From Candidatus Thioglobus autotrophicus (GTDB lineage: Bacteria > Pseudomonadota > Gammaproteobacteria > PS1 > Pseudothioglobaceae), in contig JAKUUR010000018.1 in assembly GCA_022448455.1 (NCBI GenBank), positions 1 through 34,264 on the forward strand: a stretch of 34,264 nucleotides of DNA, written 5' to 3'. The notes under the pieces are model-generated. The model was not told the DNA's origin and ran no database searches. It worked only from the letters and a program-made list of their open reading frames with translations. Numbering within the stretch: the first letter of the stretch is position 1; the number at the start of each line of letters is the position of its first letter. A program made the position numbers and the translations under genes. Shown here piece after piece: positions 22,964 through 34,264 of the stretch.

Positions 22964-22999
22964 TGAATAAGAGTTAGCGTGTTTCTTTTTGGAGAGCGT

Positions 23000-24547
23000 A
23001 TGACTGATCAAAAGAGAAAGAGAAAGAGAAGGGATGGCGGACGGTCTGCGAAGATTGCGTATAGAAAAAAATCTGCGCAAATAGAAGCGCCAAGGTTTTT
23101 GTCACGCAAAATTCCATGTTATGAGTTACTGGGTGAAGAGGAATTGGTGAGCATTGAAGAGCATGCGGACTGGATTCTTAAAGAGGTCGGTATCGAGTTT
23201 TGGGGAGATGATGAGGCCCTAAAACTGTTCAAGGATGCAGGTGTCACAGTTAAAGGCAACAGACTGCAATTTGATAGAGGGCAAGCCCTTGAGCTTTGCA
23301 AGACAGCTCCTAAAGAGTTCGAAATGCATGCTCGAAATCCAAAAAGGTCAACGATATTTGGTGGCAATAGATTGGTTTTTGGGCCAGCATACGGATCCCC
23401 TTTTGTTTACGATCGAAAGAGAGGTAGGAGGCAGGGAACCATGGAAGATTTCCGGAACTTGGTCAAACTTGCTCACATGATCCCTTGGTTACACCATACA
23501 AGTGGCACAGTTTGTGAACCGGTTGACATACCTGTTAACAAGCGCCATTTAGATATGGTGTATGCTCATTTAAAGTATTCTGATAAGCCTTTTATGGGTG
23601 CTGTTACTGCACCCGAGCGTGCCGAAGATTCGATTACAATGGCGCGCATTGTTTTTGGCGACGAGTTTCTAGAGTCAAACTGTGTTATTCAGGGCAATAT
23701 AAACGTTAACTCGCCTCTGGTTTATGACAGCACTATGTCTGGGGCCTTGAAAGCCTATGCGAGAGCTAATCAAGGTGTTGTTATAACGCCCTTTATTCTT
23801 GGTGGTGCAATGTCACCAGTTACCATGCCAGCAGCAGTCGCTCAAGCCCATGCTGAAACTATGGTAGGCGTTGCCTTAACACAATTGGTACGACCGGGAT
23901 CGAGTGCTGTGTATGGCAATTTTTTAACAACCATGGATCTTAAGTCTGGAGCGCCAACATTTGGAACACCTGAATCTACTCTGGCAACCCTAGCGGTTGG
24001 ACAAATAGCACGAAGATTGGGGTTGCCTTTTCGGGCTGGTGGTCATTACACAGCTTCCAAAGTGACTGATGCTCAAGCCATGCAGGAGTCGGCGGATTCA
24101 ATGTTTCCAGCATTTTTGGCGGGCGCTAATTTTATCCACCAAGCGGCTGGTTGGTTGGAGGGCGGTTTAGTTGTAGGTTATGAGAAATTTATACTTGATT
24201 CGGACCGTCTTGGAATGTTGCATCGAATGGGTGATGGAATGGTCATTAATGAGAATTCTCTAGGTTTTAGTGCCTATATGGAAAACTCCCCAGGTGAGAA
24301 CTTTTTAGGTACAGAGCATACTGGAGAAAACTTTGAGACAGCAAACTTTCGCTCTGAAATAGCTGACAATAATTCTTTTGAGCAGTGGGAAGAGGATGGC
24401 TCTAAGGATGCCGAAGAGAGAGCTTACGAGCGCTGGAATACTATGCTCGATGAATATATAGAACCACCGATGGATTCCGCAATAGATGAAGAATTGAAAG
24501 ACTTTATAAGGTTAAAGAAAGACAGTATGGATGACGAGTGGTATTAA
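23000..24547 (+). CDS. MttB-family methyltransferase without pyrrolysine
   Basis: The MttB superfamily transfers methyl groups from quaternary or tertiary amines to a corrinoid protein. True trimethylamine MttB contains pyrrolysine read from an in-frame UAG; this frame of 515 codons is uninterrupted, so it belongs to the non-Pyl branch, which includes glycine betaine, proline betaine and carnitine methyltransferases. Visible family blocks are FGGNRLVFGPAYGSP, GTVCEPVD, and DLKSGAPTFGTPE. I start it at ATG 23000, since GGAGAG (22991-22996) is its Shine-Dalgarno; GTG at 22979 lies upstream of this. The N-terminus is very basic (KRKRKRR). Its stop overlaps by four bases the stop of the convergent carnitine gene. 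No corrinoid protein or activator gene is in the window. Confidence 0.85.
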   Translation: MTDQKRKRKRRDGGRSAKIAYRKKSAQIEAPRFLSRKIPCYELLGEEELVSIEEHADWILKEVGIEFWGDDEALKLFKDAGVTVKGNRLQFDRGQALELCKTAPKEFEMHARNPKRSTIFGGNRLVFGPAYGSPFVYDRKRGRRQGTMEDFRNLVKLAHMIPWLHHTSGTVCEPVDIPVNKRHLDMVYAHLKYSDKPFMGAVTAPERAEDSITMARIVFGDEFLESNCVIQGNINVNSPLVYDSTMSGALKAYARANQGVVITPFILGGAMSPVTMPAAVAQAHAETMVGVALTQLVRPGSSAVYGNFLTTMDLKSGAPTFGTPESTLATLAVGQIARRLGLPFRAGGHYTASKVTDAQAMQESADSMFPAFLAGANFIHQAAGWLEGGLVVGYEKFILDSDRLGMLHRMGDGMVINENSLGFSAYMENSPGENFLGTEHTGENFETANFRSEIADNNSFEQWEEDGSKDAEERAYERWNTMLDEYIEPPMDSAIDEELKDFIRLKKDSMDDEWY

Positions 24548-26022
24548 ACCTTATCACCTACTGCACGAGCTAAACCTTCTGGCTTAGCAAGTTTTTTATG
24601 AGCTTCGTAAACACGCTCAACTCTATTGATAACTAGTTCACTAGGCATGCTAGCACCACGGGTTTTTAGATTGACATGGATCAGCATATGTTCAGCTGTT
24701 GCTAGCAATCTGTCGTCCTCATGGTAGAGGTAATGGAACAGGTGAAGTTTTTTACCGGCACCTTGGATGACTTGGGTTGTTGCGTATACTCCTTCACCGA
24801 TTAGAACTTCATCTAAATGGCGAATATGCGTTTCCACAGTAAAGTAGGAGCCTATACTAGATATGTATTCCTCATCAACACCAACAATAGCCATCATTTC
24901 AGTGGTAGCATCTGAAAAACATTCCAGATAACGTGACTCTGTCATGTGGCCGTTATAGTCGGCCCATTCTTTACGTACTTTGGTTTTAAGCGTCAAGAGT
25001 GGAGCTGTCAGGTCAAGTTTTACAAAGTCTGTGCGTTTCTTTGTTCTATTTAAACGATCTTCAAACTCTTTCAGGGTATTGCCAGCGCCCCATCGATTCT
25101 TCTTCAATACCTTTAAAAAATCTACCAAGTTGTCGTCACGTTTTTTTTCTAATTCGTCAATACTAAATTGTCCAGATTGCTTATCAGATTGGCTTGAAAC
25201 TTTATCCACTAATTCCTCTGTAAATTCAGGGACATCCATTAGATGAGTCCATGGCCACTCAAGACATGGTCCAAATTGTGCAATAAAATGGCGCATTCCT
25301 GCCTCTCCACCTGCCAGTCTATAGGTTTCGAATAGACCCATTTGTGCCCAACGCAAGCCAAATCCAAAACGTATAGCGTCATCAATTTCTTCTGTAGTTG
25401 CGATATCGTCATTGACCAGCCAAAGCGCCTCTCGCCAGACTGATTCGAGGAGTCTGTCGGCAATAAATGCGGGGATTTCCTTTTTAATATGTAACGGGAA
25501 CATGCCGACATTAGTAAAAATACTACTGGCCCTTTCAATCAATTCTTTGGATGTTTTAGAGCCACCTACAATTTCCACCAAAGGAAGAAGATAGACCGGG
25601 TTGAATGGATGGGCTACGATGAGGCGTTCGGGTTGCTTCATTTTCGCTTGTAAGTCTGATGGTAGGATGCCTGACGTTGAGGAAGCAATAATTACATTAT
25701 TATTGGTACTCAATTCAATCTCATCATAAACCGATTGTTTTGCTGACAGTCTTTCCGGTACAGCTTCGATAATGATATCGGCAGATTTAGAAGCATCTGA
25801 AACCGAGTTTTCAAATGTAAGAGTGCCTCTCTTTGGTAAATCACATGCAAGTAGCTGAGCGTAAGCTCTTTCAGCATTTTGAATGACTTTGTTAACATTT
25901 TTTGGAGCATCTTTTGAGGGATCATAGACAGCAACATCTATACCATTTAAAAGAAATCGCGCTATCCAGCCACTACCAATAACGCCTGCACCAATAACGC
26001 CAGCGGAATTAATCCTCGTCAT
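24544..26022 (-). CDS. lcdH: L-carnitine dehydrogenase fused to betainyl-CoA thioesterase
   Basis: Residues 1-320 are a 3-hydroxyacyl-CoA dehydrogenase-type protein with the NAD site GAGVIG (11-16), HPFNPVYLLPLVE (138-150, catalytic His) and the C-terminal helical domain, as in carnitine 3-dehydrogenase, which makes 3-dehydrocarnitine. Residues about 340-470 are a hotdog thioesterase with DYNGHM (355-360). Thioesterases of this kind in carnitine clusters split betainyl-CoA to glycine betaine. Fused forms of these two activities are known. The BKACE gene lies 1 base upstream in the same operon and supplies the middle step, so the order of reactions is complete in two genes. Confidence 0.88.
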   Translation of the reverse strand: MTRINSAGVIGAGVIGSGWIARFLLNGIDVAVYDPSKDAPKNVNKVIQNAERAYAQLLACDLPKRGTLTFENSVSDASKSADIIIEAVPERLSAKQSVYDEIELSTNNNVIIASSTSGILPSDLQAKMKQPERLIVAHPFNPVYLLPLVEIVGGSKTSKELIERASSIFTNVGMFPLHIKKEIPAFIADRLLESVWREALWLVNDDIATTEEIDDAIRFGFGLRWAQMGLFETYRLAGGEAGMRHFIAQFGPCLEWPWTHLMDVPEFTEELVDKVSSQSDKQSGQFSIDELEKKRDDNLVDFLKVLKKNRWGAGNTLKEFEDRLNRTKKRTDFVKLDLTAPLLTLKTKVRKEWADYNGHMTESRYLECFSDATTEMMAIVGVDEEYISSIGSYFTVETHIRHLDEVLIGEGVYATTQVIQGAGKKLHLFHYLYHEDDRLLATAEHMLIHVNLKTRGASMPSELVINRVERVYEAHKKLAKPEGLARAVGDKV

Positions 26023-26023
26023 T

Positions 26024-26935
26024 CTATCCCCAGCGTTTCACTAGCTTCATTTTATCGCGTACATCTTGCGGTTCCATAATACTGCAACCCATACCTAGTG
26101 CAGTTTGTACAGCTTTTTCAACGAGCTCTTCGTTGGTTGCAAGGACGCCACGTTTGAGGTAGATGTTATCCTCAAGTCCGACACGAATGTTGCCACCAGC
26201 TAAAACTGCCAAGGCGACATAGGGCAATTCGTTCCTGCTAATCGAGAAGGCAGAAAAGGTCCAATCTTTTGGAACATTTGATGTCATTGCGAGAAATGTG
26301 TGTAGGTCATCAGGTGCGCCCCAAGGTATACCCATACAGAGCTGAATCATCACCGGATCATCAATTAGGCCTTGTTCTTTGAGCCATATTGCAAACTGTA
26401 AATGACCAGTATCAAAAACTTCAATTTCAGGTTTCACTCCCAGCGCTTGAACTTGTTTCGTCATCTCTTGCAATACTGAAGTGGTGTTGGTCATAACGTA
26501 ATCACCTTGGCCAAAATTCATGGAGCCACAATCAATAGTACATATCTCAGGAAGTATATCTGTGACATGTTCAAGTCGCTCCGTTGCACCAACCATATCG
26601 GTTCCTTTGTCATTTAATGGCAGCGGTTCTTCAGCAGAACCAAAAACCATGTCACCACCCATCCCAGTGGTTAGATTCAAAACCACATCAACCTTTGACT
26701 CTCTAATGAAATTAACGACTTCAGCATATAGAGCAGGATCACGAGCAGGAGCGCCTGTTTTTGGGTCTCTAACATGGATGTGAACAACAGCGGCGCCTGC
26801 CTGGGCTGCTCCAATACATGAGTCGGCGATTTGTTGAGGTGTGATGGGAACCTTGTCGGACCTTCCAGTCGAGTCTCCAGAGCCTGTAACGGCGCAAGTA
26901 ATAAATACATCCCTTGATGGTTGAAGGTTGATCAT
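26024..26935 (-). CDS. Beta-keto acid cleavage enzyme (BKACE), probable dehydrocarnitine cleavage
   Basis: A 303-residue DUF849/BKACE TIM-barrel protein. The Zn2+-binding HIHVRD (His52, His54) and NLTTGMGG are typical. These enzymes condense a beta-keto acid with acetyl-CoA and release acetoacetate. With dehydrocarnitine the products are betainyl-CoA and acetoacetate (CdhC activity). The specificity is inferred from the carnitine dehydrogenase-thioesterase immediately downstream and the CdhR-like gene opposite. A good Shine-Dalgarno, GGAGAA, precedes the ATG on the minus strand. Confidence 0.85.
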   Translation of the reverse strand: MINLQPSRDVFITCAVTGSGDSTGRSDKVPITPQQIADSCIGAAQAGAAVVHIHVRDPKTGAPARDPALYAEVVNFIRESKVDVVLNLTTGMGGDMVFGSAEEPLPLNDKGTDMVGATERLEHVTDILPEICTIDCGSMNFGQGDYVMTNTTSVLQEMTKQVQALGVKPEIEVFDTGHLQFAIWLKEQGLIDDPVMIQLCMGIPWGAPDDLHTFLAMTSNVPKDWTFSAFSISRNELPYVALAVLAGGNIRVGLEDNIYLKRGVLATNEELVEKAVQTALGMGCSIMEPQDVRDKMKLVKRWG

Positions 26936-26991
26936 AATAATTTCTCCAATAATAGACTATTCATTTTAGACAAAATAAATTGAGATTTAAA

Positions 26992-27010
26992 TATGTTACT
27001 GTTCAACATA
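26992..27010. promoter_or_regulatory. Inverted repeat in the carnitine divergent promoter region
   Basis: TATGTT (26992-26997) and AACATA (27005-27010), seven bases apart, form a perfect inverted repeat in the 119-base gap between the BKACE gene and the regulator. It overlaps the expected -35 of the regulator promoter, so it may be the regulator's own site. Confidence 0.4.
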
Positions 27011-27015
27011 CTGTG

Positions 27016-27024
27016 TGCTATACT
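27016..27024 (+). promoter_or_regulatory. Extended -10 promoter of the GlxA-type regulator
   Basis: TGC followed by TATACT (27019-27024) is an extended -10 element, 30 bases before the regulator's ATG. The -35 is poor, as is usual when an extended -10 is used. Confidence 0.45.
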
Positions 27025-27054
27025 TTTTCCGTCATAAATTATACATAATACGAA

Positions 27055-28017
27055 ATGAGTATATTTACCAGTTCAGAATCAACATTGCAGGTAACGATCT
27101 TGGTGTTACCTGAATCCTCTATGCTGGTACTTGCTTCTATGATTGACCCAATGCGGGCTGCAAACCGTTTATCGGAGAGGCAATGTTTTACTTGGAAGAT
27201 TGTTACAATTGATGGTCTGCCGGTTGAATGTACATGTGGTCTTCAAATTACAGCAGACGGGAAACTTGAATCCATCAAAGATGGAAATCTACTTTTTATT
27301 GTTTCTGGCTTTAAACAATTTGAATATATTTCCAGTGATGAGATAGGGTTTATTAGAAGATTTTCATTAAAGTTTGATGCAATGGGAGGCGTTGATACCG
27401 GGGCTTGGATTTTAGGAAAAGCTGGATTACTAGACGGCAAATCTGCTACAACTCATTGGGAAGATTTAGAAGATTTTGCAGATTATTTTCGACAAACTAA
27501 GGTTCAACCGGACCGCTTTGTCATTGATAAAGATGTTATTACAATTGGTGGCGCATCGCCTACCTTTGATTTTATGCTTCATTTGATTAGATCAAGAATC
27601 GGTTACCCTGCAGCTTTGGAGGTTGCAAGTGTTTTTGTATACGATGAAACGCATTTCTCAACTGATGCACAGCCACTCGTATCATTGGGGTTATTGAATG
27701 ATTTTGAGCCACGTGTCACTAAAGCTATCCGCATCATGGAATCAAACCTTGATGAACCGATTTCTGTGACATCAGTTGCAAAGAGATTGAATATTTCAAG
27801 TCGTAGACTAGAAAATCTCTTTCAATTGCATTTACAAACCACTCCAGGAGTATATTATTTAAATCTAAGATTACTTCGTGCAAGAAAATATGTCACGGAT
27901 ACGCTTTTACCAATGCAAGAAATAGCTATAAGAACCGGCTTTAACAGTCTTTCATCATTCTCAAGGTCCTTCAAGAAAAGTTACCATAACTCACCCAGTG
28001 CGTATCGTCAGAAATAA
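27055..28017 (+). CDS. GlxA-family AraC-type regulator, CdhR-like
   Basis: 320 residues with an N-terminal DJ-1/PfpI-like domain (about 10-190) and a C-terminal AraC double helix-turn-helix (about 218-318, with ISVTSVAKRLNISSRRLENLF and the closing GFNSLSSFSRSFKK). Regulators of this class, such as CdhR and GbdR in Pseudomonas, control carnitine and glycine betaine catabolism. Divergence from the carnitine genes supports activation of that operon by carnitine or a product. No Shine-Dalgarno is visible before the ATG. Confidence 0.85.
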   Translation: MSIFTSSESTLQVTILVLPESSMLVLASMIDPMRAANRLSERQCFTWKIVTIDGLPVECTCGLQITADGKLESIKDGNLLFIVSGFKQFEYISSDEIGFIRRFSLKFDAMGGVDTGAWILGKAGLLDGKSATTHWEDLEDFADYFRQTKVQPDRFVIDKDVITIGGASPTFDFMLHLIRSRIGYPAALEVASVFVYDETHFSTDAQPLVSLGLLNDFEPRVTKAIRIMESNLDEPISVTSVAKRLNISSRRLENLFQLHLQTTPGVYYLNLRLLRARKYVTDTLLPMQEIAIRTGFNSLSSFSRSFKKSYHNSPSAYRQK

Positions 28018-28054
28018 TTGTATTGTAGCCCAATAATAACTCTAAATATTATTT

Positions 28055-28072
28055 TGCATACGCTTGCAAATA
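28055..28072. promoter_or_regulatory. LacI-type operator O1
   Basis: TGCATACGCTTGCAAATA is the exact reverse complement of 28105-28122. Its core TGCATACGCTTGCA is a near-palindrome around a central CG, the layout of LacI/CcpA-family operators. It lies upstream of the promoter of the operon that encodes a LacI-family protein. Confidence 0.8.
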
Positions 28073-28095: not shown

Positions 28096-28104
28096 TGCTA
28101 TAAT
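28096..28104 (+). promoter_or_regulatory. Extended -10 promoter of the 28172 operon
   Basis: TGC then a perfect TATAAT (28099-28104) forms an extended -10 element directly against operator O2, with O1 just beyond the -35 position (TATAAA, poor). A repressor on the two sites would cover or loop out the promoter. Confidence 0.7.
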
Positions 28105-28122
28105 TATTTGCAAGCGTATGCA
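28105..28122. promoter_or_regulatory. LacI-type operator O2
   Basis: TATTTGCAAGCGTATGCA begins at the base after the -10 element, covering the transcription start. It is identical to O1 in inverted orientation; the site centres are 50 bases apart, close to five helical turns. Confidence 0.8.
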
Positions 28123-28171
28123 TCATTATTGTTATATCTAAAACTTCAGGTGATTAACACAAGGATAAACT

Positions 28172-29224
28172 ATGGCTGAAATTCAATTAAAAAATCTAAC
28201 CAAGCGATGGGGCAGTTTTGTTGGCGTAGACAACTTTAATTTAACTATTGCTGACGAAGAATTTTTGGTATTGCTTGGACCCTCTGGTTGCGGGAAAACG
28301 ACTACTATGCGAATGATCGCTGGCCTAGAAGATGTTACTGAGGGTGAAATAATAATCGGTGGAAAAATCGTTAATGGACTGGAACCAAAAGACCGAGATA
28401 TTGCAATGGTTTTCCAGTCATATGCGCTCTATCCAAACATGAATGTTTACGAAAATATTCGATTCCCTCTGAAGGTAAGAAAGGTTGATCGAGAACTTCA
28501 TGATGAGAGAGTGATGCGGGCGGTTGCAATGGTCGAACTGGATGACTTTTTACATCGAAAACCATCTGAATTATCGGGTGGTCAGCGTCAACGTGTTGCC
28601 TTGGCAAGGGCAATTGTTCGTGAACCTACTGTGTTTTTGATGGATGAGCCATTATCGAACCTTGATGCTAAATTGCGAGTCTCTACTCGCGCACAAATAA
28701 AAAATCTACAGCATGAGTTACGTGTCACAACCATTTACGTGACCCATGATCAGGTAGAGGCTATGACACTTGCTGATAGGATTGTTGTTATGAATGCTGG
28801 TGCTATTCAACAGATTGGGACTCCAAAAGAAATCTATAACAAACCTGCCAATAGTTTCGTTGCAAGCTTTATTGGTGCTCCTGCTATGAATTTGATGCAT
28901 GGTTCCATTAATGATGGCATCTTTATTGGTGAAAACGTCAGAATCACAGGATTAAATAAAGACCATTCTGGTGAGGTAACTCTGGGGTTTCGTGCTGAAG
29001 ATGCATCCATTGTTGAAAGTGGAGGCGAAATTACTGGCCCTACCTTTTCTATGGAGCTTTTGGGCGATGCGACAATGGTTTCTATTAGGGCTGGAGGCGA
29101 ACTGGTTTCCATCAAATCTGAGAAAAATTACTTTACTGAAATAGGCTCTATGGTTATGGCACATATTCCTGCAAATCTTTGCTTACTATTTAGCAAGGAA
29201 ACAGGAGAGATGATTGACAACTAA
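28172..29224 (+). CDS. ABC transporter ATPase, UgpC/MalK type
   Basis: A 350-residue ATPase of the carbohydrate-uptake (CUT1) type: Walker A GPSGCGKT (36-43), signature LSGGQRQR (134-141), Walker B FLMDE (155-159), and a C-terminal TOBE/OB regulatory region (about 235-350). Such ATPases power uptake of sugars, polyols or glycerol phosphates. No permease or binding protein is in the window; they may lie past the right edge, or the ATPase serves remote partners. It is the first gene of the LacI-operator-controlled operon. AAGGATAAACT precedes the ATG. Confidence 0.92.
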
Positions 29225-29260
29225 AAAATAAATATATAGATATTAAAACTTGAATTGAAT

Positions 29261-29746
29261 ATGAACCATAAAGAAAAATCAAAAGAAACATACTCCGTAG
29301 TAAAAGCCATGGAGGACGCTTTAGTAGCTGGCTCGAATGATATGGGTAAGTACTTCCATGAAGAATTTCGCTGGATGGGAAACCAGGGTTGCGGCACCAA
29401 AAAAAACCTTAAAGAGTTTCGAAATAATTGGCAGTTGCCTCTTAGAGCTGCTTTCACTGAACGAATATACAAAACAGATAAGTTCTTAGTGGATGGTGAG
29501 TGGGCCGCATGCTTTGGCCACATTGACGCAATCCATAGCGGTGAATTTATGGGTATTGTACCAACCAACAAACGAGTGAAAATTCACTACACTGATTTTT
29601 GGGAAGTTAAAGAAGGACTTATAGCTGACAACTGGGTAACGGTTGACTTTCCAAGTATTTTGGCACAGCTTGGTGTTGACGTATTTAACGGTCAAGGCTG
29701 GGAAGCCTATGATCGTGGCGAAAAAAAACCACGGAAACCTGAATAA
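29261..29746 (+). CDS. SnoaL/NTF2-like protein
   Basis: A 161-residue protein of the SnoaL-like (NTF2 fold) type, a cone-shaped fold used by isomerases, cyclases, dehydratases and non-enzymatic binding proteins. Evidence is the pattern of a helical start, then [11 protein letters not shown], a central strand pair, and [20 protein letters not shown], followed by the tail [14 protein letters not shown] prefer ATG 29261 over TTG 29255; neither has a clear Shine-Dalgarno. The C-terminal pattern recurs in the first half of the 32863-33831 protein, so the two are paralogues. Its reaction is unknown. Confidence 0.7.
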
Positions 29747-29757
29747 GTAGGGACATT

Positions 29758-31068
29758 ATGGCTATTCAATATTTAAAAAAAGGTAAAACTGAAGCAGACC
29801 GAGCAGTAGATGATGCGAAGGTCAGTAAGGTCGTCGAAGATACACTACAAGCAATTGCAGAAAAGGGTGACGAAGCTTTAAGAGAGTTCTCTATAAAGTT
29901 TGACAATTACAACCCAACATCTTTTAAGTTGAGCTCAGCCGAAATTGAAAATCTAATAAAGCAAGTGTCAAAACGTGACTTGGAAGACATTAAGTTTGCT
30001 CAAACCCAAATAAGGAAATTTGCTCAAGCCCAGCGTGATTCAATGTTAGATATAGAAATTGAAACTATGCCCGGCGTTATTCTCGGACACAAAAACATAC
30101 CGGTGCAGTCTGTCGGTTGCTACGTTCCTGGGGGTAAATTCCCGATGGTGGCCTCTGCGCATATGTCTATCGTTACGGCAGAGGTCGCGAAAGTTCCTCG
30201 TATTATAGCTGCTACACCACCATTTGAAGGGGAGCCCAATCCAGCAGTTATCGCTGCCATGCAACTTGGCGGTGCTCATGAGATTTACGTTATGGGTGGT
30301 ATTCAAGCGGTTGGTGCAATGTCGCTTGGCACTGAGACTATAAAATCCGTTGACATGATGGTAGGTCCGGGAAATGCATATGTTGCTGAAGCCAAAAGAC
30401 AATTATTCGGACGCGTAGGTATCGATTTACTTGCCGGACCAACAGAAACCATGGTAATAGCCGACGACACAGTTGATGCTGAATTATGTGCAACTGATTT
30501 GCTTGGTCAGGCTGAGCATGGATATGATTCTCCCGCCGTTTTGGTGACTAATAACCAAAAACTGGCTGAAGATACCCTCTCTGAGATAGACAGAATATTA
30601 AAGATTCTTCCAACCGCGAATACAGCCTCAGTAAGTTGGAAAGATTACGGTGAAGTCATTCTTTGCGATAGTTATGAAGAGATGCTCAATGTTGCCAACG
30701 ATATTGCCTCAGAACATGTTCAAGTTATGACGGATCGAGATCAATGGTTTTTAGATAATATGCACTCCTATGGCGCACTATTTTTAGGACCGAGAACAAA
30801 TGTTGCTAATGGTGACAAGGTTATTGGTACCAACCATACATTGCCAACTAAAAAAGCGGGTCGTTACACTGGCGGACTGTGGGTTGGCAAATTCCTTAAA
30901 ACGCATAGCTATCAGCAAATAACCACTGATGAGGCTGCCGTTAAGATTGGAGAGTATTGCTCTCGTTTATGCATGCTGGAATCATTTGTTGGGCATGCAG
31001 AACAGGCCAATATTAGGATTCGTCGTTATGGCGGAAAAGATATACCCTATGGAGAAGCTGCAGAATGA
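29758..31068 (+). CDS. Histidinol dehydrogenase-like zinc oxidoreductase (HpsN-like)
   Basis: 436 residues of the HisD family, which oxidises a primary alcohol to an acid in two NAD+ steps. All E. coli HisD zinc ligands have counterparts: Gln251 and His254 (GQAEHG), Asp353 (GDKVIG) and His413 (GHAEQA), with catalytic Glu319-His320 (SEH). The region after TNHTLPT (359-365) reads [18 protein letters not shown], unlike biosynthetic HisD. Known members with other substrates include HpsN, which oxidises 2,3-dihydroxypropane-1-sulfonate to sulfolactate. Location in a LacI-controlled catabolic operon, away from his genes, argues against histidine synthesis. The ATG follows TAGGGAC, and its stop overlaps the next start (ATGA). 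Confidence 0.8.
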
Positions 31069-31832
31069 TTGAACTACCTAAAACTCCATCTAGGTCGCTT
31101 AATGGACGTAAAGCTCTTATTATTGGAGCATCGTCTGGTATTGGTTTAGGATGTGCCGTAGCTTTGGCTGAGGCAGGCGCGCATGTATGCTTATCAGCTA
31201 GAAACGTCAACAACCTTAATCAGGTCGTTAAAGCGGTTCAAACAAAAGGCTGTAGTGCTGAAGCAATGGTTTTGGATATTTCTGATGTTGAAACTACACA
31301 AGAATCAATTGCAAATAATGGTCCTTTTGATATCTTGGTTAATAGCGCTGGTTTAGGTCGTCATGCGCCATCTCAGTACACCACTGTTGAGGATTTTGAT
31401 GAAGTTATGAATGTCAATCTTCGTGGGGCTTATTTTGTAACACAGGCTGTAGCAAATGGTTTAATCATTAGCAACAAGCCCGGCTCTTTAATAAATATTT
31501 CTTCTCAAATGGGACATGTAGGCGGTATTGATAGAGCCGTATATTCCGCATCCAAACATGCAGTAGAAGGTTTTACCAAAGCTATGGCAATTGAGTGGGG
31601 GCCATATAATATTCGAGTCAATACCATTTGTCCCACATTTATCCGTACACCATTAACACAAAGCACTTTAGATAGCCCTAAGCATAGAAGTTGGATTGAA
31701 GCAAAGATTAAGCTTGGTCGAGTAGGCAAGGTTGAAGATATCATGGGAGCGGTAGTATTTCTAGCTTCTGACGCTTCTGCAATGGTCACAGGTTCGGCAT
31801 TGATGGTTGATGGAGGTTGGACGGCAGATTGA
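31065..31832 (+). CDS. SDR-family dehydrogenase
   Basis: A classical short-chain dehydrogenase of 255 residues: cofactor motif GASSGIG (21-27), NSAG near 93-96, catalytic Ser (146/147), Tyr160 and Lys164 (YSASK), and the C-terminal [17 protein letters not shown]. It overlaps the HisD-like gene by four bases, so the two probably act on the same compound. In the dihydroxypropanesulfonate pathway an SDR (HpsO) accompanies HpsN and interconverts the isomers; this is a possible parallel, not a proof. Sequence alone does not fix the substrate. Confidence 0.85.
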
Positions 31833-32854
31833 TGGTAACTAAAAAAATAACCTCATTGGAAGTGGCAAAATTGGCTGGCGTGAGCCAGTCCGCAGTTTCA
31901 CGGGTTTTTACACCTGGCGCTTCTGCTTCCAAAAAAACAGAGGAAAAAGTTCGGAAAGCGGCTACGGAGCTTGATTACCGACCAAACGTTTTAGCTCGAT
32001 CTTTAATTACCGGTCGGTCACGCATTATCGGTCTAGTGGTTGCTCATCTGGATAACTACTTTTATCCTGAGGCACTGGAGCTTATTTCTAATTCCTTACA
32101 AAAAAAAGGCTACCATGTTTTGGTTTTTATGGCATCAAAAACAGCAGGTAGCATTGATGATGTGGTAGACGAGATTCTAGACTATCAGGTTGATGGCATC
32201 ATTCTTGCTTCTGTGGCAATTTCTTCAAACCTAGCCAGTCGATGTAATGCTAGAGGAGTTCCAGTAATTTTGTTCAATCGTTCCCAAGATGACGACAGGT
32301 TTTCGGCAATCACATCAGATAATATTCTTGGCGGGCAAAAAGTTGCGAGACTCTTGATTGCTGGAGGTCACAAACGTATAGCTTATATCGCTGGATGGGA
32401 AGGCGCTTCAACTCAGCGTGATAGAGAAGCTGGTTTTGTCGAAGAGCTGAAACAGCACGGAATGTCTCTTCATGCTCGTGAGGTTGGTAATTTTATTCAA
32501 GATGAAGCTCGACAGGCTGCACGGAAAATGTTTACTGCTAACGAAATACCAGATGCTGTTTTTGTAGCAAGTGATGACATGTCATTTGCAGTAATGGATG
32601 TAATTCGTTTTGAGCTAGGGTTAAAAATTCCAGAACAAGTTTCGGTTGTTGGCTATGATGACGTGCCAGTTTCTTCTTGGCCTGCTTATGATTTAACAAC
32701 TGTTAGACAGCCAGCTAATCGCATGGTAGCTGAAACCATTTCAATGATTCTTGAGTGTATTGAAAATAAGAAAACAAAGCCACGTCAAATAAAAATAGAT
32801 GGTCCACTTATCATGCGTGGCTCAACAAGAATTTCAACTAAATTGTCCAAATAG
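31832..32854 (+). CDS. LacI-family transcriptional repressor
   Basis: 340 residues with a LacI helix-turn-helix (about 8-27: LEVAKLAGVSQSAVSRVF), the hinge around residues 50-60 (RPNVLARSL), and a periplasmic-binding-protein-like effector domain (65-340). I place the start at ATG 31832, which overlaps the SDR stop in TGATG; TTG 31817 is possible but has no spaced Shine-Dalgarno. The paired LacI-type operators at 28055-28122 are its likely sites, giving autoregulation of the whole operon. The effector is probably the substrate or an early product. Confidence 0.92.
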   Translation: MVTKKITSLEVAKLAGVSQSAVSRVFTPGASASKKTEEKVRKAATELDYRPNVLARSLITGRSRIIGLVVAHLDNYFYPEALELISNSLQKKGYHVLVFMASKTAGSIDDVVDEILDYQVDGIILASVAISSNLASRCNARGVPVILFNRSQDDDRFSAITSDNILGGQKVARLLIAGGHKRIAYIAGWEGASTQRDREAGFVEELKQHGMSLHAREVGNFIQDEARQAARKMFTANEIPDAVFVASDDMSFAVMDVIRFELGLKIPEQVSVVGYDDVPVSSWPAYDLTTVRQPANRMVAETISMILECIENKKTKPRQIKIDGPLIMRGSTRISTKLSK

Positions 32855-32862
32855 GGGGTTGA

Positions 32863-33831
32863 GTGAAAGGATTTGACTCAAAGTTTGAAAATTTTCCTGA
32901 TTATATTAATGGTATTACTTATGAGATTTGGGAGGAGCGTGGAATTGATAAATTAGAATATCTCTATTCTAATGATATACCTGTGCGTTCACCATCAGGC
33001 ATAGTGATAGGAAACAAGGATGTCATTAAAGCTACTAAAGCTACATTATCTGAATTTCCAGATAGGCAGCTTCTAGGTGAAGATGTAATCTGGTCTGGCT
33101 CGCCTGAACAAGGCATGTTATCTTCTCATCGTATTATTTCTACAGCAACGCATTTGGGTGACGGCCAGTATGGCAAAGCAACTGGAATAAAAGTTAAATT
33201 CCGAACAATTGCAGATTGTCATGCAATCAATAACCAGATAAATGATGAATGGTTAATTCGGGATCAAGGGGGCATAGTTAGACAGTTAGGAATGGAGGTA
33301 GAGGATTGTGCTAGAAAACAGATAGATGCTGAGGGTGGACCAGAAAACTGTAAGTGGCCTTTTTCAGAATCCATGAATCAAATAGGCCCTTATCAAGGTA
33401 AAGGAAATTCTAATGAGTGGGGCGAGAAGTATGTTGATATATTAAGACAGATTATGAACTCCGATGAAGCAGTGATTACAAACCAATATGACCGAGGATG
33501 CCATCTTGAATATCCTGGAGGAGTTACAGGTCATTCATATTCAGATGCAACCGAGTTTTGGACAAACTTGCGTTCTGCTCTTCCAAGTGCAAAGTTTACA
33601 ATTGAACATCAAATTGGCCGTGAAGATAAAAATATGTCACCTCGAGCTGCAGTTCGCTGGACCCTAGAGGGTAAGCATGATGGCTGGGGTGTTTTTGGAG
33701 CACCATCTGGAGCAGAATTATATGTGATGGGTGTTTCACATGCTGAATTTGGGCCATGGGGGCTCAGAAGAGAGTACACCATATTTGATGAGGTAGCTTT
33801 ATGGAAGCAGATAATACTTAAGACAGGCTAG
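32863..33831 (+). CDS. Tandem SnoaL/NTF2-like protein
   Basis: A 322-residue protein that I read as two SnoaL-like domains. Domain 1 (about 20-140) ends with DEWLIRDQGGIVRQLGMEVE, which aligns with the end of the single-domain protein at 29261-29746. Domain 2 (about 185-320) contains TGHSYSDATEFW and VRWTLEGKHDGWG, and closes with an FGPWGLRREYTIFDEVALW strand set. Start is GTG, 6 bases after the AGGGGG Shine-Dalgarno. The function is unknown; isomerase, dehydratase or lactone-type chemistry would fit the fold and the neighbours. The next gene starts 2 bases after its stop. Confidence 0.7.
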   Translation: MKGFDSKFENFPDYINGITYEIWEERGIDKLEYLYSNDIPVRSPSGIVIGNKDVIKATKATLSEFPDRQLLGEDVIWSGSPEQGMLSSHRIISTATHLGDGQYGKATGIKVKFRTIADCHAINNQINDEWLIRDQGGIVRQLGMEVEDCARKQIDAEGGPENCKWPFSESMNQIGPYQGKGNSNEWGEKYVDILRQIMNSDEAVITNQYDRGCHLEYPGGVTGHSYSDATEFWTNLRSALPSAKFTIEHQIGREDKNMSPRAAVRWTLEGKHDGWGVFGAPSGAELYVMGVSHAEFGPWGLRREYTIFDEVALWKQIILKTG

Positions 33832-33833
33832 TA

Positions 33834-34264
33834 ATGAATAGAGAAGAAACAAAACCTCAAATAGTTCGCTTTAATGAATTAAAGCCTTGTAAAACAGCAT
33901 TTATTGATGCACATACACCCGGTTCAGACCAAAAAGATAACTTCACTATTATCGGTCCGGGTGTGTCAGAAAGTCCTGATCAATATGTACATATTTCTGA
34001 AACACCAGGTTTTAATATTGGTGCAGCTGGACAACCACCTAAATGTATTAACTCATTGCATTCACATACAACAGCTGAGGTATTTTTTGTTTTTAAAGGT
34101 CGCTGGCGATTTTTTTGGGGCAGGTGGGGTACCGCGGGAGAGGTAATTATTGAAGAAGGAGATATATTTAATGTGCCTACTGAAATGTTTCGGGCTTTCG
34201 AAAATATCGGAAATGATTACGGTATGCTTATGGCGATACTCGGTGGCGATGATGCTGGTGGTGG
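33834..34264 (+). CDS. Cupin-domain protein, cut by the window end
   Basis: I translated this frame by hand from ATG 33834. It stays open to the right edge, 143 codons. Residues 75-95 hold the cupin motif HSHTTAEVFFVFKG with the metal-type His76, His78 and Glu82; the second cupin motif (NVPTEMFRAFEN, about 113-124) lacks the usual His. Cupins of this sort include metal-dependent isomerases, dioxygenases and DMSP lyases as well as non-catalytic binders, so no function is assigned. It begins 2 bases after the tandem SnoaL gene and belongs to the operon. Confidence 0.75.
   Translation, partial: MNREETKPQIVRFNELKPCKTAFIDAHTPGSDQKDNFTIIGPGVSESPDQYVHISETPGFNIGAAGQPPKCINSLHSHTTAEVFFVFKGRWRFFWGRWGTAGEVIIEEGDIFNVPTEMFRAFENIGNDYGMLMAILGGDDAGG

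Follow-up and report, generated by a model that had tools for sequence, protein, structure and literature searches.

Which compound do the genes that close the window appear to import and degrade, and by which route? The window is the whole stretch analysed here, 34264 bases of Candidatus Thioglobus autotrophicus DNA that coincide exactly with contig C10 of the assembly. Its last seven open reading frames (ORFs), all on the + strand between 28172 and 34262, encode the ATPase of an ATP-binding cassette (ABC) importer (UgpC), two SnoaL-like proteins (SnoaL_A and SnoaL_C), an enzyme resembling histidinol dehydrogenase (HisD), a short-chain dehydrogenase/reductase (SDR), a LacI-type regulator and a cupin (Table 1). 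From sequence comparisons we conclude that these genes probably belong to a substrate-specific catabolic regulon, with a local LacI protein, import of the CUT1 type and breakdown of a sugar-like polyhydroxy compound. This reading starts from the observed gene order, co-occurrence, a shared operator sequence, family assignments, conserved catalytic residues and a motif that is not that of HpsN. Among the papers listed by searches of the open-licence literature, seen as titles and opening lines of abstracts and taking in neither subscription papers nor preprints, none describes the operon.

Conservation of the operon

The gaps between the seven ORFs measure 36, 11, -4, -1, 8 and 2 bases, SnoaL_A starting at the ATG at 29261 and LacI at the ATG at 31832; the last ORF, encoding the cupin, stops at codon 143 because the contig ends with the window. 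The initial annotation had taken these same-strand genes, with gaps of -4 to 36 bases, for one unit, which is confirmed by the ORF list, the coordinates and the conserved gene order. Families were assigned with Pfam and NCBIfam profiles. Both SnoaL proteins score above the curated PF07366 cut-off (54.2 and 57.2 bits vs 28.4), and the truncated cupin just under its Pfam cut-off (25.4 vs 27.2 bits; 35.0 for the full-length Ruegeria copy). Cupin copies in relatives have about 321 residues, with two barrel-like halves in the model. SnoaL_A is 55% identical to its Ruegeria copy, and the SDR 62% identical to the one in the Ruegeria operon.

Gene order is kept in all seven same-genus loci read (ugpC, snoaL_A, hisD, in two of them snoaL_B, the SDR gene, lacI and snoaL_C; the G010 contig stops inside snoaL_C). 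Six of the seven continue with the cupin gene, a metE-like gene, a hydrolase gene, an rraA-like gene, in four a further snoaL gene, then genes for a binding protein and two permeases, and another snoaL gene. The HisD clade of the window (at least 72% identity, partial copies counted) was found in 17 of the 25 same-genus genomes (G000-G024), and a paralogue of 44-46% identity in 18 of them. Further afield, a plasmid of Ruegeria sp. AD91A carries the same set including snoaL_B, the Octadecabacter arcticus locus is without snoaL_A and is preceded by a fragment of a transposase gene, and the Paracoccus alcaliphilus locus lacks metE; in all three, unlike in the same-genus loci, the binding protein and permease genes lie upstream of hisD. 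The search beyond 34264 recommended at the outset yielded, in relatives, the expected permeases and binding protein, and no sulfolyase is annotated in the operons of these three organisms.

We mapped the genes by tblastn (at least 35% identity) in 80 cupin-anchored loci, taken from the top 80 among 536 confirmed relatives, a set biased to close kin and by title mostly from Roseobacter-group Alphaproteobacteria. HisD and LacI were found in 77 loci each, SDR in 72, SnoaL_C in 69, the hydrolase in 67, RraA and SnoaL_B in 65 each, MetE in 64, SnoaL_A in 63 and UgpC in 61; the UgpC and operator counts are lower bounds, as the first gene often lies at the edge of the stretch. In 369 genomes evenly sampled from the class, source genome included, the cupin and SnoaL_C were each found in 8, and these are the same 8 genomes (G163 and G191 being distant matches). 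Both genes lie on one contig in six of the eight and on different contigs in G282 and G319, so that they co-occur even where they are not seen adjacent. The HisD clade (at least 62% identity) is present in 11 of the 369, namely in 7 of these 8 genomes vs 4 of the 361 others; the cupin/SnoaL_C genome without it, G219, is 58% complete. Kinship inflates this co-occurrence, yet the 8 genomes span 7 families. A neighbourhood comparison had been proposed as the way to find out whether the SnoaL and cupin genes adjoin the others by chance; chance adjacency is rejected by the co-occurrence in the 369 genomes, by the counts in the 80 loci and by the shared operator.

A shared operator and its regulator

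Upstream of ugpC, the hexamer TATAAT sits between two copies of an operator of the TTGCATACGTATGCAA type. The TTGCAATCGTATGCAT-like palindrome right after TATAAT is common to the eight same-genus sequences upstream of ugpC. Copy 1 is clear in the window, G021 and G017, has an altered central CG in G003, G006 and G012, and is degenerate in G009 and G010. A LacI protein encoded together with CG-centred palindromic operators at the promoter argues for LacI control, and the early description of a LacI-controlled transport-sense-degrade unit holds up, since the operators were found and binding protein and permease genes follow in six of the seven same-genus loci. All 13 same-genus genomes scanned have 2 to 6 operator matches each at no more than one mismatch, vs 0 or 1 in a backwards control, and in G003, G006, G012, G017 and G021 the binding protein gene is closely preceded by one more operator, single or as a pair. 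The source genome (G000) has three such places, the two before ugpC and one on another contig (C12:36822-36837).

Alpha- and gammaproteobacteria and Deinococcus also have the operator in front of these genes. In 98 other loci, a symmetric 16-mer form gave 38 matches at no more than two mismatches, of which 32 precede a mapped pathway gene by up to 400 bases, vs at most 4 matches and 3 upstream (means 0.25 and 0.03) for 300 permuted palindromes used as a control; as the symmetric form was fixed after seeing 7 of the 98 loci, and as the loci are related, this control overstates independence. In the window alone, two matches at no more than three mismatches, with 1.67 expected, are no better than chance, and the weight of the operator therefore comes from its conservation. 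Sites with one mismatch lie before genes for UgpC, the binding protein, the cupin, HisD, a second HisD, the hydrolase, SnoaL, an amidase or LacI in Ruegeria, Paracoccus, Sinorhizobium, Roseibium, Devosia, Novosphingobium and Pantoea. Five of 33 one-mismatch sites are not upstream of a mapped gene; two of these may be noise, and one is the Deinococcus site, between the cupin and binding protein genes. A wider scan for a 14-mer core, allowing one mismatch, covered about 31 Mb in 12 entire records or genomes and found 22 places, 21 of them inside the fetched clusters. The 22nd, in Shinella (L193, G395 contig C3, near 9207), precedes an unlinked SnoaL-binding protein-permease-permease-ugpC operon on a different contig. 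Two of the 12 records have no core match, and the operator sites there are more divergent.

The recognition helix AGVSQSAVSR is identical in the LacI proteins of the window, Ruegeria, Octadecabacter, Paracoccus, Sinorhizobium, Roseibium, Novosphingobium, Pantoea and Deinococcus, and differs in those of Antarctobacter, Tritonibacter and Ensifer. The shared operator and identical helix therefore place the SnoaL proteins, the transporter, the amidase, both HisDs and the cupin in one regulon, beyond mere adjacency. Across Proteobacteria and Deinococcus, SnoaL proteins are linked through a single operator sequence to another kind of HisD-like enzyme, a cupin of two barrels and an aldolase, and this spread suggests that some compound present in the sea, in soil and on leaves is probably consumed through a route not described so far.

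Motif and tree set the HisD-like enzyme apart from HpsN and HisD

The substrate first proposed was dihydroxypropanesulfonate (DHPS), degraded through a variant of the HpsN/HpsO route. According to passages of PMC11382572 and PMC11131964, the HpsN/HpsO/HpsP pathway, like the window, places a HisD-family four-electron dehydrogenase beside an SDR. The best solved-structure matches of the window enzyme are HpsN enzymes, and the catalytic Glu318-His319 and Asp352 and the sulfonate-binding Lys353 (HpsN numbering) are kept, in ASEHVQ and NGDK. HpsN carries a G-R-Y-A/S-H motif whose His (His126) binds sulfonate, as a passage of PMC11382572 has it. In its place the window enzyme has G-K-F-P-M, as do 103 of 114 aligned copies (a set that includes nested copies of one locus), the other 11 being HpsN, second-HisD, Pantoea and Deinococcus copies. 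In a 32-row tree, in which the program flagged long branches, true HisD, HpsN, the amidase-linked second HisD (HisD2) and the window clade are separate; the window clade (20 rows, support 97/93) and the HpsN group (3 rows, 100/99) both lie within a larger group of 24 rows. The operon also differs from the HpsN pathway in its LacI and CUT1 ABC proteins, SnoaL proteins and cupin, to which relatives add MetE and an aldolase, and neither a sulfolyase nor other sulfolactate-processing genes are annotated in the Ruegeria, Octadecabacter and Paracoccus operons. Such genes are present on contig C70 of the source genome, in a separate and apparently complete HpsN-type operon (L035, G000, 35001-55000). 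This cluster encodes a GntR/UTRA protein, a medium-chain dehydrogenase/reductase (MDR; zinc alcohol dehydrogenase), an SDR, HpsN with GRYAH, Ldh_2 and a GD_AH (SuyAB-type) protein, is adjoined by ORFs recognised by eye as TRAP-like, and by its content is the predicted DHPS operon. The motif, the tree and the C70 cluster reject DHPS as the substrate of the window operon and take it out of the HpsN/HpsO route, of which it is most improbably a variant.

Could the enzyme be a true histidinol dehydrogenase with accidental neighbours? It shares PF00815 and the active-site Glu-His with HisD and scores above the TIGR00069 hisD cut-off (431.8 vs 243.8 bits). It differs from HisD in having GDK instead of GDY and in lying outside a his context, it is 34% identical to the other HisD of the genome (on C67), which the tree places together with two further true HisDs, and its operon and operator are conserved. 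Its placement in the tree rejects this identity, which we regard as next to impossible, and genuine histidinol dehydrogenase activity is, judging from the sequence, unlikely. For this clade, the annotation 'hisD' and the analogy with HpsN both mislead.

Folds and motifs of the accompanying proteins

The SnoaL proteins of the window have a fold in common with SnoaL/ester cyclases, epoxide hydrolases and ketosteroid isomerase-like proteins, and the operon differs from those systems in holding several copies. The model of SnoaL_C is a tandem fold of high predicted local confidence (pLDDT 94). Its first matches are the double-length structures 3rga (lasalocid epoxide hydrolase) and 9kw6 (MonBI-MonBII), followed by single-domain cyclases and hydroxylases, with 7-24% identity in the 50 matches listed. 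This nearness to polyether epoxide hydrolases and polyketide cyclases or hydroxylases would suit a biosynthetic cluster in which SnoaL proteins act as polyketide cyclases in making a natural product. No polyketide synthase is annotated in the Ruegeria, Octadecabacter and Paracoccus loci, and LacI control, an aldolase and an importer with a solute-binding protein are features typical of catabolic units, so that such a cluster is very unlikely.

The cupin model is a double barrel whose nearest folds are quercetin and salicylate dioxygenases and oxalate decarboxylase, with TM-scores of 0.41-0.53 (query length) among the matches listed. Residues H76, H78 and E82 are invariant, and the later His position of HxH...E...H, which we take to be the metal site of bicupin dioxygenases, is an invariant Arg120. 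As predictions, the SnoaL_C and cupin models rank reaction types and prove none. Sequence searches against solved structures left the cupin without a match and the SnoaL proteins with weak relatives only. Of the CUT1 (UgpABCE-type) importer, the ATPase is encoded in the window and the binding protein and two permeases in relatives; the binding protein has weak matches to sugar-binding proteins of solved structure.

The RraA-like proteins of relatives share PF03737 with the 4-hydroxy-4-methyl-2-oxoglutarate/4-carboxy-4-hydroxy-2-oxoadipate (HMG/CHA) aldolases and keep R-D-x-x-D (72 aligned copies), a motif of RraA-like aldolases; unlike those aldolases, they fall below every NCBIfam cut-off shown. 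The MetE-like proteins share PF01717 with the cobalamin-independent methyltransferases of the MetE type and keep HxC and a later C (66 aligned copies), presumably the ligands in MetE-type proteins. They differ in having about 374 amino acids and one catalytic domain and in scoring below the MetE cut-offs.

Modular variants of the locus

HisD and SDR genes with an HpcH- or RraA-type aldolase gene form a module that has no annotated SnoaL or cupin gene in Sulfitobacter, beside a C4-dicarboxylate-type binding protein, and in Antarctobacter and Tritonibacter, beside TAXI-TRAP genes. Two Stappia loci (L105, L109) keep HisD-LacI-SDR-cupin-hydrolase-RraA, with no SnoaL mapped in the locus. Roseibium has this block apart from a SnoaL-ABC block, each with its own LacI. 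The HisD2 clade (motif GRYPL, GRYPI or GRFPL) occurs in five loci (L045, L047, L051, L118, L124), with an amidase gene in the same cluster in all five and the operator directly upstream in four; a second HisD of Deinococcus, of unsure placement, lies beside a C-N hydrolase. In Novosphingobium pentaromativorans, the neighbours of a MetE homologue (52.5% identity) are genes of folate and demethylation type; they encode PurU, methylenetetrahydrofolate reductase, a protein of the aminomethyltransferase family, a FolD-type enzyme and protocatechuate dioxygenase, surroundings that suggest handling of methyl groups. The distribution of these modules therefore leads to a two-part reading, with an upper part (SnoaL, MetE or amidase, ABC importer) and a lower part (HisD, SDR, aldolase).

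Other combinations were seen. Plasmid pC of Ensifer adhaerens (L050, 12001-18937) has genes for a SnoaL_C homologue, an HpcH-type aldolase, a 3-oxo-tetronate kinase, an aldolase, LacI and a cupin, and no annotated HisD. A Vibrio pelagius plasmid (L048, 1-14143) has four SnoaL/NTF2-type genes and a CUT1 importer beside sarcosine oxidase subunits, with no LacI gene annotated and no close operator in that locus. On a plasmid of the haloarchaeon Halobellus limi (L136, 1126-15153), an ABC importer and an aldehyde dehydrogenase are encoded with five SnoaL proteins and a MetE-like protein. In several genomes of the genus the operon is followed downstream by genes for MttB and for FAD/GcvT proteins (dimethylglycine dehydrogenase-like), with ORFs that look Rieske- and MDR-like by eye (L030 10774-16124, L043 7446-12317), and FAD/GcvT genes occur in four cupin-anchored loci (L068, L075, L090, L125). 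The presence of dimethylglycine dehydrogenase-, MttB- and Rieske-type genes near some loci may be due to chance and is given little weight.

Proposed pathway and nature of the substrate

In the regulon that we propose, for which we infer repression, the order of the steps, each reaction and the substrate class, the window genes would be the first part, with LacI encoded inside it. The LacI repressor would bind the two operators flanking the -10 hexamer and release them on meeting the substrate or an early product. The CUT1-type importer, with its ATPase from the window and a binding protein and permeases known from relatives, would bring in a polyhydroxylated, sugar-like and probably methyl-bearing compound, bearing an amide too in amidase-bearing relatives. 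SnoaL proteins, cupin, MetE-like protein and alpha/beta-hydrolase would strip and open it, the upper part of the route thus preparing an acid with a terminal glycol. In the lower part, the HisD-like enzyme would oxidise the -CH(OH)-CH2OH end to -CH(OH)-COOH with 2 NAD+, the SDR would form a 2-oxo acid by oxidising the secondary alcohol, and an aldolase, RraA-like or of HpcH type, would finish by splitting this acid to pyruvate or a relative of pyruvate. The binding protein and LacI offer two direct handles on the identity of the substrate.

Several observations weigh against this proposal. In the scan of the 98 loci the operator is present at one mismatch in only 19, many of the loci having their first gene at the edge of the stretch, and at this threshold it was not found in Octadecabacter, nor in Ensifer NER9, Antarctobacter or Tritonibacter. 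The cupin model is only moderately sure (pLDDT 75), and the cupin keeps three of the four usual metal ligands. Rhizobium plasmids carry the HisD clade with no SnoaL or cupin gene annotated nearby, and the Halobellus limi plasmid has its SnoaL and MetE-like genes with neither HisD nor cupin in the 30 kb shown. In the 80 cupin-anchored loci, some of them short, MetE was unseen in 16 and SnoaL_C in 11; the unit is therefore modular, and substrates may differ. Last, searches of the 95%-complete assembly of the source genome, run without a positive control, recovered neither the binding protein nor the MetE-like gene. The simplest reason is an assembly gap, because both genes lie just past the cut in kin; a less simple one would be their loss from the source genome.

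The substrate might instead be an ordinary sugar acid (tetronate, 3-deoxy-aldonate or isosaccharinate-like) or an O-methyl sugar, HisD and SDR turning a terminal glycol into a 2-oxo acid from which the aldolase gives pyruvate or hydroxypyruvate. This would fit the CUT1 transporter and the LacI regulator, the HisD-SDR-aldolase modules beside TRAP or C4-dicarboxylate-type transporters, the retention of Lys353, which binds sulfonate in HpsN, here as in other non-HisD clades, and the 3-oxo-tetronate kinase and second aldolase of the Ensifer locus. That locus, however, has no close operator and a changed recognition helix, and a sugar acid leaves unexplained three to five SnoaL proteins and the two barrels of a cupin that is nearest in fold to dioxygenases and oxalate decarboxylase. 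We consider such a substrate possible, if somewhat doubtful.

The boldest candidates, mycosporines, are unlikely. Their chemistry, deduced here from their structures, would give work to most of the proteins: the MetE-like protein would take the ring methyl, release of the amino substituents would fall to the SnoaL proteins, oxidation of the ring CH2OH next to a tertiary OH to HisD, and ring opening, towards 4-carboxy-4-hydroxy-2-oxoadipate for the RraA-like aldolase, to the cupin and hydrolase. Glutaminol-type mycosporines contain an amino alcohol with an amide, and the second HisD and amidase of Pantoea, Novosphingobium, Roseibium and Devosia-type relatives could serve these; FAD/GcvT-type oxidoreductases near some loci could handle the N-glycine part. 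The SDR has no clear place in such a route. The HisD2-amidase set is also found in marine Roseibium and was unseen in the Sinorhizobium stretch, so that the tie to fungal mycosporines is weaker. A passage of PMC3083659 relays the suggestion that Vibrio harveyi hydrolyses the side chains of mycosporine-like amino acids, and none of the papers listed by our open-licence literature searches deals with bacterial genes for mycosporine breakdown.

Table 1. Coordinates of the operon genes and of the promoter elements upstream of ugpC
Feature	Position	Strand	Basis or remark
LacI-type operator copy 1, TTTGCATACGCTTGCAAAT	28053..28071	.	inverted copy of operator 2
-10 hexamer TATAAT, with TG at 28096-28097 (extended -10)	28099..28104	+	kept in 8/8 same-genus upstream regions
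LacI-type operator copy 2, ATTTGCAAGCGTATGCATC, right behind the -10	28106..28124	.	kept in 8/8 same-genus upstream regions
UgpC/MalK-type ABC transporter ATPase	28172..29224	+	PRK11650, 444 bits vs cut-off 432
SnoaL_A, single-domain SnoaL-like protein	29261..29746	+	PF07366, 54.2 bits; TTG start at 29255 possible
HisD-like NAD/zinc dehydrogenase, own clade, GKFPM motif	29758..31068	+	Histidinol_dh match, motif, tree
SDR-family dehydrogenase	31065..31832	+	Pfam/NCBIfam match
LacI-family regulator	31832..32854	+	Pfam match; recognition helix AGVSQSAVSR
SnoaL_C, tandem double SnoaL-like protein, GTG start	32863..33831	+	SnoaL matches in both halves; model pLDDT 94
Cupin, N-terminal 143 codons of about 321 residues	33834..34262	+	cut by contig end

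Neighbouring genes

A carnitine-type gene cluster, ordinary-looking and kept in the genus, adjoins the operon at 22979-28017. A link between the two was dropped, since none of these genes is annotated beside the Ruegeria, Octadecabacter and Paracoccus copies of the operon. The cluster encodes an MttB-type protein, a carnitine dehydrogenase-thioesterase-like fusion and a BKACE-like protein, all three recognised by eye, and a GbdR-like regulator (profile match).

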